NCBI GenBank assembly: GCA_009833045.1
Contig: WUUP01000011.1
Coordinates: 62,001-126,000 of the forward strand
Source: Saprospirales bacterium GYS_P2D
GTDB taxonomy: Bacteria; Bacteroidota; Bacteroidia; Chitinophagales; Saprospiraceae
Reading direction: 5' to 3'
Length of the DNA: 64,000 nucleotides
Each line of letters begins with the position of its first letter. Positions within the stretch are counted from its first letter, which is position 1. Of this stretch, positions 14,878 to 45,162 are shown piece after piece. The translations under genes were made by a program, and so were the position numbers. The notes under the pieces are model-generated. The model was given only the letters and a program-made list of their open reading frames with translations, did not search any database and was not told where the DNA came from.

Positions 14878-15588
14878 TTATATTTTCAGCTTAGAGATGG
14901 CAGATTTTGAGGCAGACTGCTCTGCAGATTTCTTGCTATAGTCATCAGCGATGGCCACTTCGTCTCCATCTATCATGACAGCGACCTTAAATCGGTCACG
15001 CTTATCCATTTTATATTTAGACAGTAGTCGATAGTCGATATTAACATTGTTCTTTTGGCCCCATTCGAGGAGTATACTCTTGTAGTTATCATCCTTATTC
15101 TCGAGAGTATGAATGTCGAGATGCTTGAGCAGGATCTCACCGATGACGTATTCTTTCGTATCGTCAAATCCTTTTTCGAGATAGATAGCACCTATCAAGG
15201 CTTCAAATGCATTACCCAGCATAGAGCTACTCAAGCGCCCCTGAGAGTAGTCGCTCAAGATGATATCAAGGCCCATCTGGCTGGCCAAGGTGTTGAGGGT
15301 CTTTCGCTTGACGATCTTAGATCGCATCTTGGTCAAAAAGCCCTCATCTTGACTTGGATATTTCTTAAAGAGGTATTCAGCTACTATAGTACTGAGGATG
15401 GCATCTCCCAGATATTCTAATCGCTCATTATGCTGATTATTTTGGGTGAATTCATCATTCATGGATTTATGATAAAAAGCTAACTTAAACAAGCCCAGAC
15501 GCCGTGGAGTGAAGCCCAGTACCTGTCGCAGTCGCTTGGCGAGCAACTTATCTTTGGATAGATAGTAATTGTAAGTTTCTCGTATCAA
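14878..15588 (-). CDS. rnc: Ribonuclease III
   Basis: Double-strand RNA endonuclease for rRNA and mRNA processing. The catalytic domain has the signature NERLEYLGDAIL (about residues 53-64), with the metal-binding Glu and Asp. The second acidic site is in GNAFEALIGAIYLEKG (near 125). A C-terminal dsRNA-binding domain covers about residues 160-235, shorter than in E. coli at its end. The 236-residue length is normal. The gene order acpP-fabF-rnc is the usual Bacteroidota arrangement. It is a plausible processing enzyme for the long inverted-repeat stems at 41.8-43.6 kb, which is inference. Confidence 0.96.
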   Translation of the reverse strand: MIRETYNYYLSKDKLLAKRLRQVLGFTPRRLGLFKLAFYHKSMNDEFTQNNQHNERLEYLGDAILSTIVAEYLFKKYPSQDEGFLTKMRSKIVKRKTLNTLASQMGLDIILSDYSQGRLSSSMLGNAFEALIGAIYLEKGFDDTKEYVIGEILLKHLDIHTLENKDDNYKSILLEWGQKNNVNIDYRLLSKYKMDKRDRFKVAVMIDGDEVAIADDYSKKSAEQSASKSAISKLKI

Positions 15589-40115: not shown

Positions 40116-40209
40116 TCTTTTGCTTTTTGAATATCCTTGATGGTCTATCAGACCCAATCTGTCGAGCCTAAGTGCCTGCAAAATAAAGAATCACATGGAT
40201 TAAAAACCA

Positions 40210-40217
40210 TACTTTTG
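40210..40217 (+). promoter_or_regulatory. prfC -7 promoter box
   Basis: TACTTTTG matches the Bacteroidota -7 consensus exactly and lies 33 nt before the chosen prfC ATG at 40251. A TTG -33 element is not obvious. The position argues against the longer prfC frame that starts upstream of it at 40137. Confidence 0.6.
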
Positions 40218-40250
40218 CAGTCCGTTTTTTTAGACGAAGATTTTATCCAA

Positions 40251-41831
40251 ATGGGTCGAAAAGAAGAGATAGAAAAAAGAAGAACATTTGGCATCATATC
40301 ACACCCTGATGCTGGTAAGACGACTTTGACAGAAAAATTACTCCTATTCGGTGGGGCGATACAGGTCGCTGGAGCGGTCAAGTCAAATAAGATAAAGAAG
40401 GGCGCCACGTCTGATTTTATGGATATCGAGCGTCAGAGAGGGATCTCAGTAGCGACCTCGGTCATGGCTTTTGACTATCGAGATCGAAAGATCAATATCC
40501 TCGATACGCCAGGTCACAAAGACTTCGCTGAAGATACCTATCGTACGCTCACGGCTGTGGATAGCGTCATTGTGGTGATCGATGTGGCAAAAGGGGTCGA
40601 GGAGCAGACAGAAAATCTCGTCAAGGTCTGTAAAATGCGGAAGACACCTATCATCGTATTCATCAATAAGTTGGATAGAGAAGGTAAAGATGGATTTGAC
40701 TTATTAGACGAAGTCGAGCAAAAGCTGGGGATAAATGTAGTACCTCAGTCCTGGCCGATTGGTATGGGGCAGCGATTTCAGGGAGTGTACAATCTCTATG
40801 AGAAAAAGCTCTGCATATTCAGCGCCCATGGTAAGCAGACAGAAGAGGAGACCATGACATTCACCGATCTCAGTGATCCACAGCTGGATGAGATCGTCGG
40901 AGAGCGAGCAGCCGATACCCTCCGTGAAGAGGTCGAGATGATCTCAGAGGTCTATCCTGATCTGGATGTATCCGAATATCTGAAAGGAGAAATATCGCCC
41001 GTATTCTTTGGTAGTGCGATTAATAATTTTGGAGTGAAGGAGCTTTTGGATTGCTTCGTAGAGATTGCTCCGTCGCCACTGCCGAGAGATACCGAGGAGC
41101 GTACAGTCGATCCGTATGAGGATGGTTTTACGGGTTTTGTATTTAAGATACATGCTAATATCGATCCTAAGCACCGAGATCGAATTGCTTTCCTCAGAGT
41201 GTGCTCTGGGACTTTTGAGCGAAATACTAACTATCAGCATCAGCGCTTGGAGCGAAAGTTAAAATTCTCGAATCCGACATCCTTCATGGCAGCCCGAAAG
41301 GAAGTCGTAGATGAGGCATTTCCTGGAGATATCGTCGGCCTTTATGATAGTGGCAACTTCAAAATCGGAGATACCCTCACTGATGGAGAGTCGCTCAACT
41401 ATAAAGGAATACCAAGCTTTTCTCCAGAGCAATTTAGATTTGTCAATAATGCCAATCCACTGAAGACTAAGCAGCTCAATAAGGGATTGGCACAGCTGAT
41501 GGATGAAGGGGTAGCGCAGCTATTCACTATGGAGCAGAGTCAGCGTAAGATTATTGGTACAGTGGGTGCTCTACAGTTTGATGTGATCCAGTACCGCCTC
41601 GAGCATGAGTACGGAGCCAGCTGCACGTACGAGCCTCTCCGTATCCACAAAGCCTGCTGGGTGAGCTGCGATGATCCTAAGGTGCTCAAAGAGTTCATAG
41701 ATCGACGAAAGAAGGATATCGCCCATGATAAAGATGGCAAGCTGGTCTATATGGCAGAGTCACAGTGGGGACTGAAGACGGTACAGGAGAATCACCCCGA
41801 AGTGGAGTTCCATTTTACAAGTGAATTCTGA
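40251..41831 (+). CDS. prfC: Peptide chain release factor 3
   Basis: GTPase that recycles RF1/RF2 after peptide release. I start at ATG 40251 (MGRKEEIEKRRTFGIISHPD), giving 526 residues, the usual RF3 length. The frame is open back to 40137 but that part crosses the promoter. G motifs: HPDAGKTTL (near residue 18), the switch segment RQRGISVATSVMAF (near 65), DTPGHKDFAED (near 87) and FINKLDREG (near 141). EF-G-like domains II and III follow and the protein ends VEFHFTSEF. It is the first gene of the run prfC, S23-like, proC, S23-like, glyS. Confidence 0.96.
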   Translation: MGRKEEIEKRRTFGIISHPDAGKTTLTEKLLLFGGAIQVAGAVKSNKIKKGATSDFMDIERQRGISVATSVMAFDYRDRKINILDTPGHKDFAEDTYRTLTAVDSVIVVIDVAKGVEEQTENLVKVCKMRKTPIIVFINKLDREGKDGFDLLDEVEQKLGINVVPQSWPIGMGQRFQGVYNLYEKKLCIFSAHGKQTEEETMTFTDLSDPQLDEIVGERAADTLREEVEMISEVYPDLDVSEYLKGEISPVFFGSAINNFGVKELLDCFVEIAPSPLPRDTEERTVDPYEDGFTGFVFKIHANIDPKHRDRIAFLRVCSGTFERNTNYQHQRLERKLKFSNPTSFMAARKEVVDEAFPGDIVGLYDSGNFKIGDTLTDGESLNYKGIPSFSPEQFRFVNNANPLKTKQLNKGLAQLMDEGVAQLFTMEQSQRKIIGTVGALQFDVIQYRLEHEYGASCTYEPLRIHKACWVSCDDPKVLKEFIDRRKKDIAHDKDGKLVYMAESQWGLKTVQENHPEVEFHFTSEF

Positions 41832-41838
41832 TGGATGG

Positions 41839-41857
41839 AGATTTTAGTCGTTAGACT
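41839..41857 (+). repeat. Left arm of the inverted repeat flanking S23-like gene 1
   Basis: agattttagtcgttagact pairs with the arm at 42297-42315 with 17 of 19 positions complementary. It begins 8 nt after the prfC stop. Confidence 0.75.
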
Positions 41858-41940
41858 GTAGTCTATAGATTTGAGCTAATATACTTTAAATGATAGTTTT
41901 TAGCTTCGTCTACTGATTATCTCATTTTATATCGGGATTG

Positions 41941-42303
41941 ATGGCGTTTAAGTTTGAACAGTTAAAGTTTTGGCAGCGTGGAATAGATTTGAATATTAGT
42001 ATAAATGAATTAGTGAAATCTTGGCCTCGAGAGGAACTATATTCATTAACTAATCAAATAAAACGGGCTGCTGATTCAGTAATATTGAATATAGCAGAAG
42101 GATCTACGGGGCAATCAAATAAAGAGTTTTTGCGATTTTTATCCTATTCACTCCGATCAGCTGTTGAAGTAGAAGCTTGCTTACATATAGCTAAGTCACG
42201 GCATTACGTAAATGAAGAGACTTTCTCAATAATGTATGTCGAGATAGAAGAGATCATTAAAATGATACAGGGCCTGAAAAGATCAATAAAAACTAAAGTC
42301 TAA
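41941..42303 (+). CDS. Four-helix-bundle protein, S23/23S-rRNA-IVS family (copy 1)
   Basis: A 120-residue all-helical protein of the family first seen as ORFs inside 23S rRNA intervening sequences (S23/bIVP, related to the Avd accessory protein of diversity-generating retroelements). The hallmarks are FEQLKFWQRGIDLNISI near the start, LTNQIKRAADSVILNIAEGS (near residues 37-56) and KEFLRFLSYSLRSAVEVEACL. ATG 41941 is preferred over TTG 41938. It sits between prfC and proC, bracketed by an inverted repeat whose right arm covers its stop codon. The four-helix bundle binds nucleic acid in characterised relatives. Its role here is unknown. Confidence 0.9.
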   Translation: MAFKFEQLKFWQRGIDLNISINELVKSWPREELYSLTNQIKRAADSVILNIAEGSTGQSNKEFLRFLSYSLRSAVEVEACLHIAKSRHYVNEETFSIMYVEIEEIIKMIQGLKRSIKTKV

Positions 42304-42315
42304 TCACTAAAATCT
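42297..42315 (+). repeat. Right arm of the inverted repeat flanking S23-like gene 1
   Basis: agtctaatcactaaaatct is the inverse complement of the arm at 41839-41857 with two mismatches. It overlaps the stop codon of the S23-like gene and ends 13 nt before the proC start. Confidence 0.75.
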
Positions 42316-42328
42316 AATAAACTTAACG

Positions 42329-43129
42329 GTGAAAATACTAATAATAGGAGGAGGAAATATGGGCTTGACCTATGCACGAGGATTCTTGAAATCCCACATC
42401 GTAGAGCTCGGTAATATGTATATCCTCGAGAAATCTCCTGAAAAAGCAGAAGAATTACGCTCATATGAGATTGGCCAAGTATATGGTAATCCCGGCGAAT
42501 ACATCCGGCAGATGGACCTCATCGTATTAGCGGTGAAGCCACAGGATGTCAATATCGTATTTGACTCGATCAAAGACTACATGGATCCGCAGCAACTCGT
42601 GCTATCGATCATGGCAGGAGTCACTATCCATACGATCTCTCAGGGGCTCAATGCTCAGAAAGTCATCCGAGCGATGCCAAATCTACCCGCACAGATCGGA
42701 TCAGGGATGACCGTATACACTTCATCAGATGATGTCACTCGTGTCGAGCTCGTCACCGTACAGAATCTACTCGCCGCATCCGGTAAGACGATCTATGTCG
42801 AGCGAGAAGAAATGCTTAATGCTGCTACGGCTGTGTCAGGATCAGGTCCGGCCTATGTGTTCTATTTCATGCAGTCCCTTATCGAGTCCGCTAAGGATAT
42901 GGGATTCACCCAGTCGGAAGCTGAGCTACTGACTTATCAGACTTTCAAAGGGGCCGTAGATTTATTCAATAAACATGATTTTTCATGCGAGGAATGGATC
43001 AAAAAAGTCAGCTCCAAAGGAGGTACTACCGAAGCAGCCATCAAAGGATTCAATACGAAAGAAGTACAGCGAGGATTCAAAGAAGGAGTACAAGCTGCGC
43101 TGAGAAGAGCAGAAGAGTTGGGGGGATAA
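42329..43129 (+). CDS. proC: Pyrroline-5-carboxylate reductase
   Basis: Reduces pyrroline-5-carboxylate to proline with NAD(P)H, the last step of proline synthesis. Start is GTG at 42329 (reads MKILIIGGGNMGLTYARG), with the Rossmann GxGxMG at residues 7-12. Further signatures are VLAVKPQDV near 70 and the C-terminal helix motif ATAVSGSGPAYVFYFMQSL near 167, followed by SKGGTTEAAIKGF near 230. The 266-residue length is normal. It is flanked on both sides by S23-like genes with their own inverted repeats, and the first repeat arm ends 13 nt before its GTG. Confidence 0.96.
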   Translation: MKILIIGGGNMGLTYARGFLKSHIVELGNMYILEKSPEKAEELRSYEIGQVYGNPGEYIRQMDLIVLAVKPQDVNIVFDSIKDYMDPQQLVLSIMAGVTIHTISQGLNAQKVIRAMPNLPAQIGSGMTVYTSSDDVTRVELVTVQNLLAASGKTIYVEREEMLNAATAVSGSGPAYVFYFMQSLIESAKDMGFTQSEAELLTYQTFKGAVDLFNKHDFSCEEWIKKVSSKGGTTEAAIKGFNTKEVQRGFKEGVQAALRRAEELGG

Positions 43130-43154
43130 AAACTAAGTTTAGATGGTTTTAATA

Positions 43155-43175
43155 GTTTTGATAGTTGAATTGTTT
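43155..43175 (+). repeat. Left arm of the inverted repeat flanking S23-like gene 2
   Basis: gttttgatagttgaattgttt is complementary to the arm at 43597-43617 at 18 of 21 positions, including a perfect 12-bp core (43164-43175). It lies 25 nt after the proC stop. Confidence 0.75.
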
Positions 43176-43194
43176 GTACATAGGTATCAATAAT

Positions 43195-43569
43195 ATGGCA
43201 CGAATATCAAAGTTTGAAGAGTTGGATTGTTGGAAGTCGGCGCATGATTTGTTAATTATGATTTATAATGTCTTGGGTAACGATACATTTAGAAGGGAGT
43301 ATTCACTACAAGATCAACTCAAGCGGGCCACATTATCTATTTCAAACAATATTGCTGAAGGTTTTGAACGAACCTCTACAAAAGAAACTATCAGATTCTT
43401 GGTGATAGCAAATAGCTCAACCTCTGAGGTCAAGAATATGCTGATAGCCTGTAAAAGCTTAGGTTTTATGACTCTCAATGATTATGAACAACTAATGACG
43501 CAAACACAGAAAACTCAAAACTTGACTAAAGGATTTATCAGATATCTCAATACTTTAGCGGCTCAATAA
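43195..43569 (+). CDS. Four-helix-bundle protein, S23/23S-rRNA-IVS family (copy 2)
   Basis: A 124-residue helical protein of the same family as copy 1 but strongly diverged from it. It has FEELDCWKSAHDLLIMIYNV near the start, LQDQLKRATLSISNNIAEGF (about residues 39-58) and TIRFLVIANSSTSEVKNMLI. I start at ATG 43195 (MARISKFEELD). An upstream ATG at 43165 lies inside the left repeat arm and adds ten unrelated residues. It lies between proC and glyS, bracketed by an inverted repeat different in sequence from that of copy 1. The divergence argues against a recent local duplication. Confidence 0.9.
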   Translation: MARISKFEELDCWKSAHDLLIMIYNVLGNDTFRREYSLQDQLKRATLSISNNIAEGFERTSTKETIRFLVIANSSTSEVKNMLIACKSLGFMTLNDYEQLMTQTQKTQNLTKGFIRYLNTLAAQ

Positions 43570-43596
43570 TGGTAGTTGAAACGATTTAACTATTTA

Positions 43597-43617
43597 AAAC
43601 AATTCAACAATCCTAAC
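43597..43617 (+). repeat. Right arm of the inverted repeat flanking S23-like gene 2
   Basis: aaacaattcaacaatcctaac mirrors 43155-43175 (18 of 21). It lies 27 nt after the S23-like stop and ends 12 nt before the glyS ATG. A further gttgaa/ttcaac pair in the same gap could form a competing local hairpin. Confidence 0.75.
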
Positions 43618-43629
43618 ATAAAGTAGAAA

Positions 43630-45162
43630 ATGGACTTTAAAAATATAATATCACACTGTAAGGAATACGGATACATCTATCAGTCGAGCGAAATCTATGA
43701 TGGTTTGGCGGCGGTATATGATTATGGACCTTATGGTGTCGAGCTCAAAAATAATATCAAGCAGTACTGGTGGAAGTCGATGGTGCAGATGCACGAAAAC
43801 ATCGTAGGTATTGACGCCGCTATATTCATGCATCCTAAGACATGGAAGGCATCGGGACACGTAGATGCATTCAATGATCCACTCGTGGATAATAAGGATA
43901 GTAAAAAGCGCTACCGAGCTGATCAGCTCGTAGAGGGGTACTGTGAGAAGATCGAGAATAAGATCAAGAAAGATGTGGTCAAGGCGCAGAAGAGATTTGG
44001 TGACAGCTTTGATGAGGCGCAGTTCAGATCGACTAATCAGCGTATCCTCGATCGTCAGGCAGAGATAGATCGTGTGATGGGCCTACTCGGCACACACATG
44101 AAGAATGAAGACATGGCAGGGCTCAAGCAGCTCATCGAGGACCTCGAAATAGCATGTCCGGAGAGTGGTAGCAGAAATTGGACCGATGTGCGTCAGTTCA
44201 ATCTAATGTTCAACACACAGCTGGGGAATATCGCTGGTGAAGAAGGAAAGCTATATCTGAGACCAGAGACAGCTCAGGGGATTTTTGTCAATTTTCTAAA
44301 TGTCCAAAAGACGACTCGTCAGAAGATTCCATTTGGTATAGCGCAAATCGGTAAGGCATTCCGAAATGAGATCGTAGCTCGTCAGTTCATCTTTAGAATG
44401 CGAGAATTTGAGCAGATGGAGATGCAGTTTTTCGTGAAGCCAGGAACTGAGATGGAGTGGTACAAGCACTGGAAAGAAACCAGACTACAGTGGCACAAGA
44501 ATCTGGGCGTACCAGCCGATAAGCTACGATATCATGATCATGACAATCTCGCACACTATGCAAATGCTGCTGTCGATATCGAGTTTGAGTTCCCATTTGG
44601 TTTCAGAGAGTTGGAGGGGATACACTCTCGTACGGACTTTGACCTCAGCAGCCATCAGGAGTTATCAGGTAAAAAGCTACAGTACTTTGATGTGGAGGAG
44701 AATAAAAACTATGTGCCATATGTAGTGGAAACCTCTATAGGCTGTGACCGTATGTTCTTAGCACAGGTGAGCTTAGCACTTCAGGAGGAGACGGTGCCAG
44801 ATGCTGATGGTAAGGAGTCGACTCGTACAGTGATGAAGCTACATCCTGCGGTAGCTCCCGTCAAATGTGCAGTCCTGCCACTCTTGAAAAATAAAGAAGA
44901 GCTCACTAATGTGGCGGAAGACATCACTCGTCAGCTCCGCAAGACGATGAATGTGCAGTATGACGAGAAGGATACTATCGGACGTCGCTATCGACGACAG
45001 GATGCGATCGGTACGCCATACTGTGTGACAGTAGACTTTGATACTTTAGAAGACAATGCCGTGACGATCCGAGATCGAGATACCTTGAGTCAGGAGAGAG
45101 TGAAAATCTCTGACCTGTCTAGGATCATCGGGGAGAAGGTATCGATGGATGATATCCTGTAG
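43630..45162 (+). CDS. glyS: Glycyl-tRNA synthetase, alpha2 (class II) type
   Basis: Charges tRNA-Gly. The single-chain GlyQS type is shown by the N-terminus MDFKNIISHCKEYGYIYQSS, motif 1 region IYDGLAAVYDYGPYGVELKN (near residue 22), and motif 2 with FRNEIVARQFIFRMREFEQM (near 242). Motif 3 is in ETSIGCDRMFLAQV (near 370). A C-terminal anticodon-binding domain ends at residue 510. The length is typical of bacterial alpha2 enzymes. The gene is the last of the prfC-proC-glyS run interrupted by the two S23-like elements. Confidence 0.96.
   Translation: MDFKNIISHCKEYGYIYQSSEIYDGLAAVYDYGPYGVELKNNIKQYWWKSMVQMHENIVGIDAAIFMHPKTWKASGHVDAFNDPLVDNKDSKKRYRADQLVEGYCEKIENKIKKDVVKAQKRFGDSFDEAQFRSTNQRILDRQAEIDRVMGLLGTHMKNEDMAGLKQLIEDLEIACPESGSRNWTDVRQFNLMFNTQLGNIAGEEGKLYLRPETAQGIFVNFLNVQKTTRQKIPFGIAQIGKAFRNEIVARQFIFRMREFEQMEMQFFVKPGTEMEWYKHWKETRLQWHKNLGVPADKLRYHDHDNLAHYANAAVDIEFEFPFGFRELEGIHSRTDFDLSSHQELSGKKLQYFDVEENKNYVPYVVETSIGCDRMFLAQVSLALQEETVPDADGKESTRTVMKLHPAVAPVKCAVLPLLKNKEELTNVAEDITRQLRKTMNVQYDEKDTIGRRYRRQDAIGTPYCVTVDFDTLEDNAVTIRDRDTLSQERVKISDLSRIIGEKVSMDDIL

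Follow-up and report, generated by a model that had tools for sequence, protein, structure and literature searches.

The intervening sequences (IVSs) of 23S (and 16S) rRNA genes carry an open reading frame (ORF) of the S23 or intervening-sequence-protein (IVP) family within a terminal inverted repeat. The Coxiella IVS, as the relevant passages of PMC4990558 describe it, is 428 nt long, contains a 28-bp stem and is cut by RNase III in vitro, and IVP ORFs have also been found in rRNA insertions of bacteria of the candidate phyla radiation (CPR), according to the section of PMC11270868 that deals with them. Here we describe two elements of this layout that lie between protein genes, in positions 41832-43629 of a 64,000-nt stretch (the window) of contig WUUP01000011.1 of Saprospirales bacterium GYS_P2D. 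These positions are bounded by prfC on one side and by a class II tRNA synthetase gene on the other; proC separates the two spacers, and one gene of the S23/23S_rRNA_IVP family sits in each of them, prfC-proC (element 1) and proC-synthetase (element 2). Our best reading, held with somewhat more than even confidence, is that they are decayed members of a family of mobile S23-heptamer elements, akin to the rRNA IVSs by gene and layout.

Two further groups of described systems are comparable. In REPIN/RAYT systems (and TIRYTs), a gene between inverted repeats is accompanied by scattered gene-less hairpins, as the pertinent part of PMC3733652 sets out, which resembles what we find below for elements with the unit AGATNTG in a genus related to our bacterium. 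The gene of RAYT/REPIN systems is a Y1 (HUH) transposase, whereas the window elements carry an S23 gene instead, with PF05635 as the sole Pfam match of each. Cyanobacterial short tandemly repeated repetitive sequences (STRRs) are heptanucleotide repeats. The portions of PMC2408588 and PMC5088731 concerned with them give no STRR unit sequences. The TAACTGA arrays (MacGregor 2015, PMC4679880) likewise consist of tandem 7-nt intergenic units, and one class of heptanucleotide sites in Geobacter metallireducens has five heptanucleotides in tandem and is depicted as a loop that spans the two strands (PMC2700814); the sections of these two papers on the repeats place such units in Bacteroidetes, Cyanobacteria and others, and discuss regulators (translational, IHF/HU). 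The terms "four helix" and "S23" occur in neither paper, and "23S" does not occur in PMC4679880. In the open-access literature, covered mainly through titles and the openings of abstracts, we found no report linking S23 genes with heptamer arrays and gene-less hairpins.

S23 genes number four in the genome of our bacterium, and at least one is present in 52 of 60 genomes of relatives. In these relatives, the flanks of S23 genes show arrays that mirror each other and repeat a unit of 7 nt (in some elements 8 or 9 nt), which varies between elements and agrees across both arms of one element. Units, all of which were read by eye here and below, include AGGTTAG, GATGGTC, TTTCAGG, AGTATCA and AGATNTG (7 nt), GAGGAATT and TTCATTGG (8 nt) and TTGATTGGG (9 nt). 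Across 118 loci, the two arms of a locus paired with a median score of 41, compared with 25 for arms swapped between loci; scores of at least 45 were attained by the own arms of 52 loci and by 1.2% of swapped pairs. The own arm was the best of its row in 42 loci and among the top 5% in 74, and a good third of the loci showed no clear own-arm excess. The periodicity is also evident from the mean lag-7 match, which was 0.607 upstream and 0.586 downstream of the genes versus 0.416 in control stretches 1.15-1.3 kb away, with values of at least 0.7 in 28 upstream and 27 downstream flanks of the 118 loci versus 11 of 224 controls. Lag 8 was raised too (9 and 8 versus 0 in controls), as was lag 14. 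The 118 loci include four near-identical IMG/VR contigs (L120, L121, L122 and L130), three of which were dropped from later counts, and part of them are the best 80 matches to a query from four fadB-fadA elements, so that the set leans towards that S23 clade. Among 104 elements, the 5' arm was poor in C (9.6%) and the 3' arm accordingly in G, so that the strands differ much as they do in telomere repeats.

A unit specific to each genome was ruled out. In one genome with 19 S23 matches (G470), the 14 loci that were read differ in unit (a 15th, L164, was found separately); as the elements of this single genome carry many units, the sequences indicate that the unit belongs to the element and not to the genome. 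The unit also remains with its gene. We compared the likeness of arm units with S23 protein identity in 156 elements, which gave 11,689 pairs of sites that are not orthologous; the 5' arm of one element was matched to the 3' arm of the other, which keeps homology of the flanks from contributing (167 loci were left after exclusion of L121, L122, L130, L166, L168, L169, L172 and of loci whose flanks were short or whose protein length was unusual; 11 further redundant elements were dropped). Units were alike in 5 of 1,680 pairs below 30% protein identity, in 25 of 270 at 55-60%, in 9 of 50 at 60-65% and in 7 of 20 above 65%, with 0 in every identity bin for flank controls. The Mantel r of 0.165 exceeded the maximum of 0.091 over 2,000 permutations (p=0.0005). 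For example, an element at an unrelated site in a Mucilaginibacter metagenome-assembled genome (MAG; L075) has the unit AGATNTG like the element of the genus g83 described next, to which its protein is 71% identical.

Occupied, scarred and empty versions of the same site occur among sister species. In the genus g83 (36 genomes), ten genomes contain a related S23 element with the unit AGATNTG (77-88% protein identity to the query), for which both flanking genes were seen in eight cases and one side in two (L166, L168). The element lies between fadB and a gene for an acyl-CoA thiolase, as judged by profile matches in L165 (FadB below its curated cut-off, thiolase above the TIGR01930 cut-off). 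Among the other 26 genomes, 23 were queried (all except G456, G468 and G471), two of which (G451, G457) gave no fadB-fadA match, and 21 junctions were read. The fadB-fadA spacer measures 5-8 bp in six of them (G466, G467, G473, G474, G475, G477); two bear a scar in which one arm and the end of S23 are left (G463, G476), and two a small AGATNTG remnant (G277, G469). The remaining junctions show heptamer-like hairpins of other units without S23 (G303, G453, G455), other palindromes or repeats (G458, G464, G472), an ORF-bearing insertion (G191, G460) or a plain longer spacer (G158, G221, G461). Across the sister species, this spacer (L173-L193) thus holds the S23 element, its scars, other-unit hairpins, GC-rich palindromes and unrelated ORFs. 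It is a hot spot of hairpin elements.

A genome of the same genus as our bacterium (G002) keeps the gene order of the window locus and has no S23 gene. Its proC-synthetase spacer is 73 bp long, without an element. The prfC-proC spacer of G002 (L039 2547-4104), at the place of element 1, holds two other ORFs of 199 and 291 aa, so that a clean empty counterpart is available for element 2 only. Elements are present in further operons, between purC and purF (L097; L108 and L119 by alignment), sucB and lpd (L153) and nrdB and nrdA (L155). An ortholog search with a Chryseobacterium protein in the genus of G159 returned nothing in 101 genomes.

Arrays of the same unit also occur without a gene. Twenty places matching the AGATNTG arm were fetched from seven g83 genomes, and tblastn with ten S23 proteins found S23 at none of the 20. 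By eye, seven of these places show a facing inverted pair (L204, L209, L212, L215, L220, L221, L222), several others have the array on one side only, and one (L205) covers the fadB-fadA scar itself. When arrays were counted genome-wide as AGATNTGAGATNTGAGA, with matches in the element's own locus removed, the ten genomes with a matching element contained 0, 5, 5, 6, 20, 23, 41, 44, 44 and 104 (median 21.5), and the median of the 26 genomes without it was 0, with counts above zero in ten and a highest count of 24; the reversed pattern yielded five matches over all 36 genomes. Two candidate spreading factors were rejected: in the 36 genomes, array number does not track Y1_Tnp genes (rho 0.24, p=0.16), a further difference from RAYT/REPIN systems besides the variation of units between S23 elements, and for reverse transcriptase rho was -0.01, with no match in eight of the ten element-bearing genomes.

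The two window copies exhibit the same architecture in weaker form (Table 1). Both genes score well above the cut-offs for PF05635 (118.2 bits for gene 1 and 98.2 for gene 2; curated cut-off 33.8) and TIGR02436 (113.5 and 95.4 bits; cut-off 24). The arms of element 1 are 29 nt long and 83% complementary, with the 3' arm overlapping the end of gene 1 (stop codon 42301-42303); those of element 2 are 21 nt long and 86% complementary. Own-arm pairing scores of 41 and 40 compare with maxima of 37 and 36 over 300 dinucleotide shuffles, while pairing the arms of element 1 with those of element 2 fails (scores 24 and 21). The initial annotation, made from the sequence of the window, had noticed two S23-like genes sharing an architecture but not a repeat sequence, and these results bear it out. 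In shuffle tests, the lag-7 match was 0.61 on the upstream and 0.64 on the downstream side of element 1, and the lag-8 match downstream of element 2 was 0.64. We regard the window arrays as decayed, and both copies as most likely decayed members of the S23-heptamer family. Nothing resembling a terminator turned up on the coding strand in a simple scan of 41600-43900, a point in favor of the initial annotation. The true start of prfC probably lies further in than the TTG listed.

Table 1. Genes and inverted-repeat arms at the S23 locus, in window coordinates
Feature	Position	Strand	Evidence
prfC (release factor 3), 5' of element 1	40137..41831	+	RF3_C match; ORF listed from TTG
Element 1, 5' arm (probably decayed period-7 array)	41839..41867	.	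inverted repeat; lag-7 p=0.026 in 41832-41940
S23/PF05635 gene 1, 120 aa	41941..42303	+	profile matches; four-helix model, pLDDT 95.2
Element 1, 3' arm (probably decayed period-7 array)	42287..42315	.	inverted repeat; lag-7 p=0.018 in 42281-42328
proC, between the elements	42329..43129	+	TIGR00112, 232.7 bits vs cut-off 196.75
Element 2, 5' arm (no significant period)	43155..43175	.	inverted repeat; pairing 40, 0/300 shuffles as good
S23/PF05635 gene 2, 124 aa	43195..43569	+	profile matches
Element 2, 3' arm (period 8)	43597..43617	.	inverted repeat; lag-8 p=0.004 in 43567-43629
Class II tRNA synthetase gene (glyS of the initial annotation), 3' of element 2	43630..45162	+	tRNA-synt_2b, HGTP_anticodon
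RNase III gene, relevant to the RNA reading only	14878..15588	-	PF00636, PF14622, dsrm matches

The modelled four-helix bundle of protein 1 is closest to 2gsc (Z 20.7) and 2rld (Z 17.9), the structures of Xcc0516 and BT_0352. Next come structures of Avd from diversity-generating retroelements (4dwl and 8ub7, Z 15.3, ~10% identity), followed by the first unrelated bundle at 13.3; Foldseek gave an E value of 0.055 for 4dwl against the model. The likeness of PF05635 to Avd is already in print (in the part of PMC10053308 that concerns it). The four-helix fold is common to both. Avd genes lie beside a reverse transcriptase gene and a template repeat; the neighbors of the window S23 genes are prfC, proC and the tRNA synthetase gene, none of which is a reverse transcriptase. 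The shared Avd fold shows no function; we infer a nucleic-acid role for the modelled S23 protein, which seems reasonable.

As to how the element moves, we infer the following. Each S23 gene would form the loop of a small insertion element that ends in mirrored arrays of a 7-9 nt unit, and the element would enter a short intra-operon spacer, mostly in sense orientation, bringing its own arms. The S23 protein, with its Avd fold, may act on the DNA or RNA hairpin that its own unit forms, and this action may promote the spread of copies with and without the gene; labor would then be divided much as between RAYT genes and REPINs, without a known transposase. In addition, RNase III might cut the stem in the mRNA, as it does in 23S rRNA IVSs, and an operon could then tolerate the insertion.

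The architecture itself, presence and absence at sister sites, scars, the cohesion of gene and unit and the enrichment of gene-less arrays are all directly observed in relatives. Several points weigh against a mobile S23-heptamer family with the window copies as members. The window arrays are weak, with element 2 periodic on one side only and its upstream arm without a significant period at lags 6-8, and our bacterium contains one such array in 400 kb (its unit resembles by eye the arms of another of its own S23 elements, L001). No target-site duplication was clear by eye at the g83 junctions. The array enrichment (p=3.6e-4, ten versus 26 genomes) is uncorrected for relatedness; one genome (G250) contains the element but lacks other arrays, and arrays occur without the element in G277 (24) and G458 (19), the single S23 gene of the latter (L297) having arms of another unit by eye. 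Array number and total S23 number per genome do not correlate (rho 0.11, 36 genomes). S23 is not known to have an enzyme activity. Moreover, in G454 one inverted AGATNTG pair, 577 bp apart, encloses a non-S23 ORF with a hydrophobic N-terminus (L296), and another has no S23 between its arms (L295).

The initial annotation had proposed that the arms are conserved RNA stems, which loop the small genes out of the operon mRNA and are cut by RNase III, with the protein perhaps binding its own stem. We consider this unlikely. In its favor is the orientation of the elements. In 127 of 146 loci, S23 lies in sense between two co-directional genes, and in 7 it is antisense (a few loci, L141/L167, L155/L172 and L160/L169, are counted twice in this set, orthologs are included and the orientations come from crude gene calls). 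When 26 fadB-fadA-like loci are removed, the count is 101 of 120, and in the less biased set L001-L033 without such sites it is 17 of 25, with one antisense. Where the flanks are co-directional, S23 is in sense in 127 of 134 loci (94.8%), compared with 74.1% of the ordinary genes of our bacterium. This bias suggests that the elements are expressed together with the host operon, or that their insertion or selection is tied to transcription. It counts against our preferred reading in that a role linked to RNA or transcription would explain it no less well than a plain DNA element would. A conserved sequence is hardly required for cutting by RNase III, and the window stems may be cut; an RNase III gene is encoded at 14.9 kb, as had been noted, the S23 genes of rRNA IVSs share the layout, and the Coxiella IVS is cut by RNase III in vitro (the passages of PMC4990558 cited above). 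As whole-element RNA, element 1 folds better than most shuffles (z -2.23; 4 of 100 as good), but the fold of element 2 equals its shuffles (z 0.05).

The arms themselves speak against selection on an RNA helix. Differing arms with kept pairing had been taken as the mark of a structural RNA; however, in relatives the arms are arrays of each element's own unit, and arms that are both built from this unit match without any compensation. Likewise, the proposed check for covariation went against the RNA role, as the own arms of eight orthologous elements scored 54.4 and species-swapped arms 53.9, compensatory change being absent. Three Chryseobacterium elements showed no clear own-arm excess (own 54, 55 and 47; cross 39-57). 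With 17 redundant or partial loci set aside, 104 of 162 elements had clear arms, and in these there is no preference for G-U over A-C mismatches (114 versus 136; expected 100.2 and 104.7; p=0.31). One arm can also expand alone (L162). Given the lack of compensation and of a G-U preference, and the one-arm expansion, an inherited inserted array or homogenization at the DNA level accounts for the arm data better than does selection for an RNA helix of the sense strand. What stands of the description as IVS-like RNA elements outside rRNA is thus an S23/IVP gene inside a terminal inverted repeat, outside rRNA, and not the structural-RNA role.

We likewise find it improbable that the hairpins are made or moved by something else, such as replication slippage or a Y1/RAYT-type or other transposase acting in trans, with S23 as one of several passengers. 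Hairpins without a gene or with other cargo do exist, other-unit hairpins without S23 occupy some fadB-fadA junctions, and Y1_Tnp genes are present in 29 of the 36 g83 genomes. However, the unit tracks S23 protein similarity, and array number tracks the matching S23 element rather than the number of Y1_Tnp or reverse transcriptase genes. Lastly, that ordinary small genes merely happen to have accidental inverted repeats is very improbable, because, common as S23 genes are and frequent as short inverted repeats are in A+T-rich spacers, none of 300 shuffles was as good for either window element, own and swapped arms differ across the 118 loci and period 7 exceeds the control stretches, the shuffle and swapped-arm controls already contradicting chance.

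Elements of the S23-heptamer type extend beyond Bacteroidota. By record title, own-arm scores of at least 45 were obtained for Chlorobiota (L055), Nitrospirae (L114), Omnitrophica (L084), Syntrophobacterales (L069), Neomarinimicrobiota (L068) and Clostridiaceae (L116), where the 99th percentile of swapped-pair scores is 46 and MAG titles may be wrong; the best CPR own-arm score was 42 (L113). A search of 72,556 plasmid records with one S23 query gave 25 matches, of which at least 18 are from cyanobacteria. Among ten plasmid loci, own arms scored at least 67 in six, 40 in one and 31, 28 and 13 in three, with units including AGGGAGT, AGGGAAC, AGGGTGT and AGGGAAA, and with period 8 at a Gemmatirosa plasmid locus. 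Swapped arms sometimes outscore own arms in L298, L299, L300, L302 and L305, because several units are alike. In L302, long near-perfect 7-nt arrays upstream of 704 and downstream of 1063 look direct and not inverted (own pairing 13), an exception to the mirrored layout. On the plasmids of Anabaena sp. 90 and Pseudanabaena galeata (L300 695-1063, L302 704-1063), the S23 gene lies between cas6 and cas4, and such insertions might account for the 23S rRNA IVP domain being listed as CRISPR-linked (in the pertinent part of PMC10910872). A Nostoc edaphicum plasmid has S23 antisense between two ribonucleotide reductase genes. One query protein gave no match in 50,697 records of annotated phages. S23 was present at 11 loci on IMG/VR contigs classed as viral, some with inverted arms (own-arm scores 95, 95, 51 and 40 for L126, L127, L128 and L129). 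Six rRNA motifs had no match in the S23 loci scanned for them, which is a weak test.

A broader proposal can be offered only tentatively. S23 elements could constitute an unrecognized class of mobile element, in which an Avd-like protein would recognize and spread hairpins of its own unit, with no known type of transposase or reverse transcriptase involved; the rRNA IVSs would then be those members whose insertion site was an rRNA gene, and at least some of the heptamer arrays found between genes in Bacteroidota, Cyanobacteria and other groups would be their gene-less offspring. Genes annotated as "four helix bundle protein" are common in Bacteroidota, and if they are the gene-bearing members of heptamer-hairpin families, their positions inside operons would be explained. 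If true, this would tie S23 genes both to the rRNA intervening sequences and to the widely noticed heptamer repeats, and would bear on two old puzzles, what S23 does and where heptamer arrays originate.

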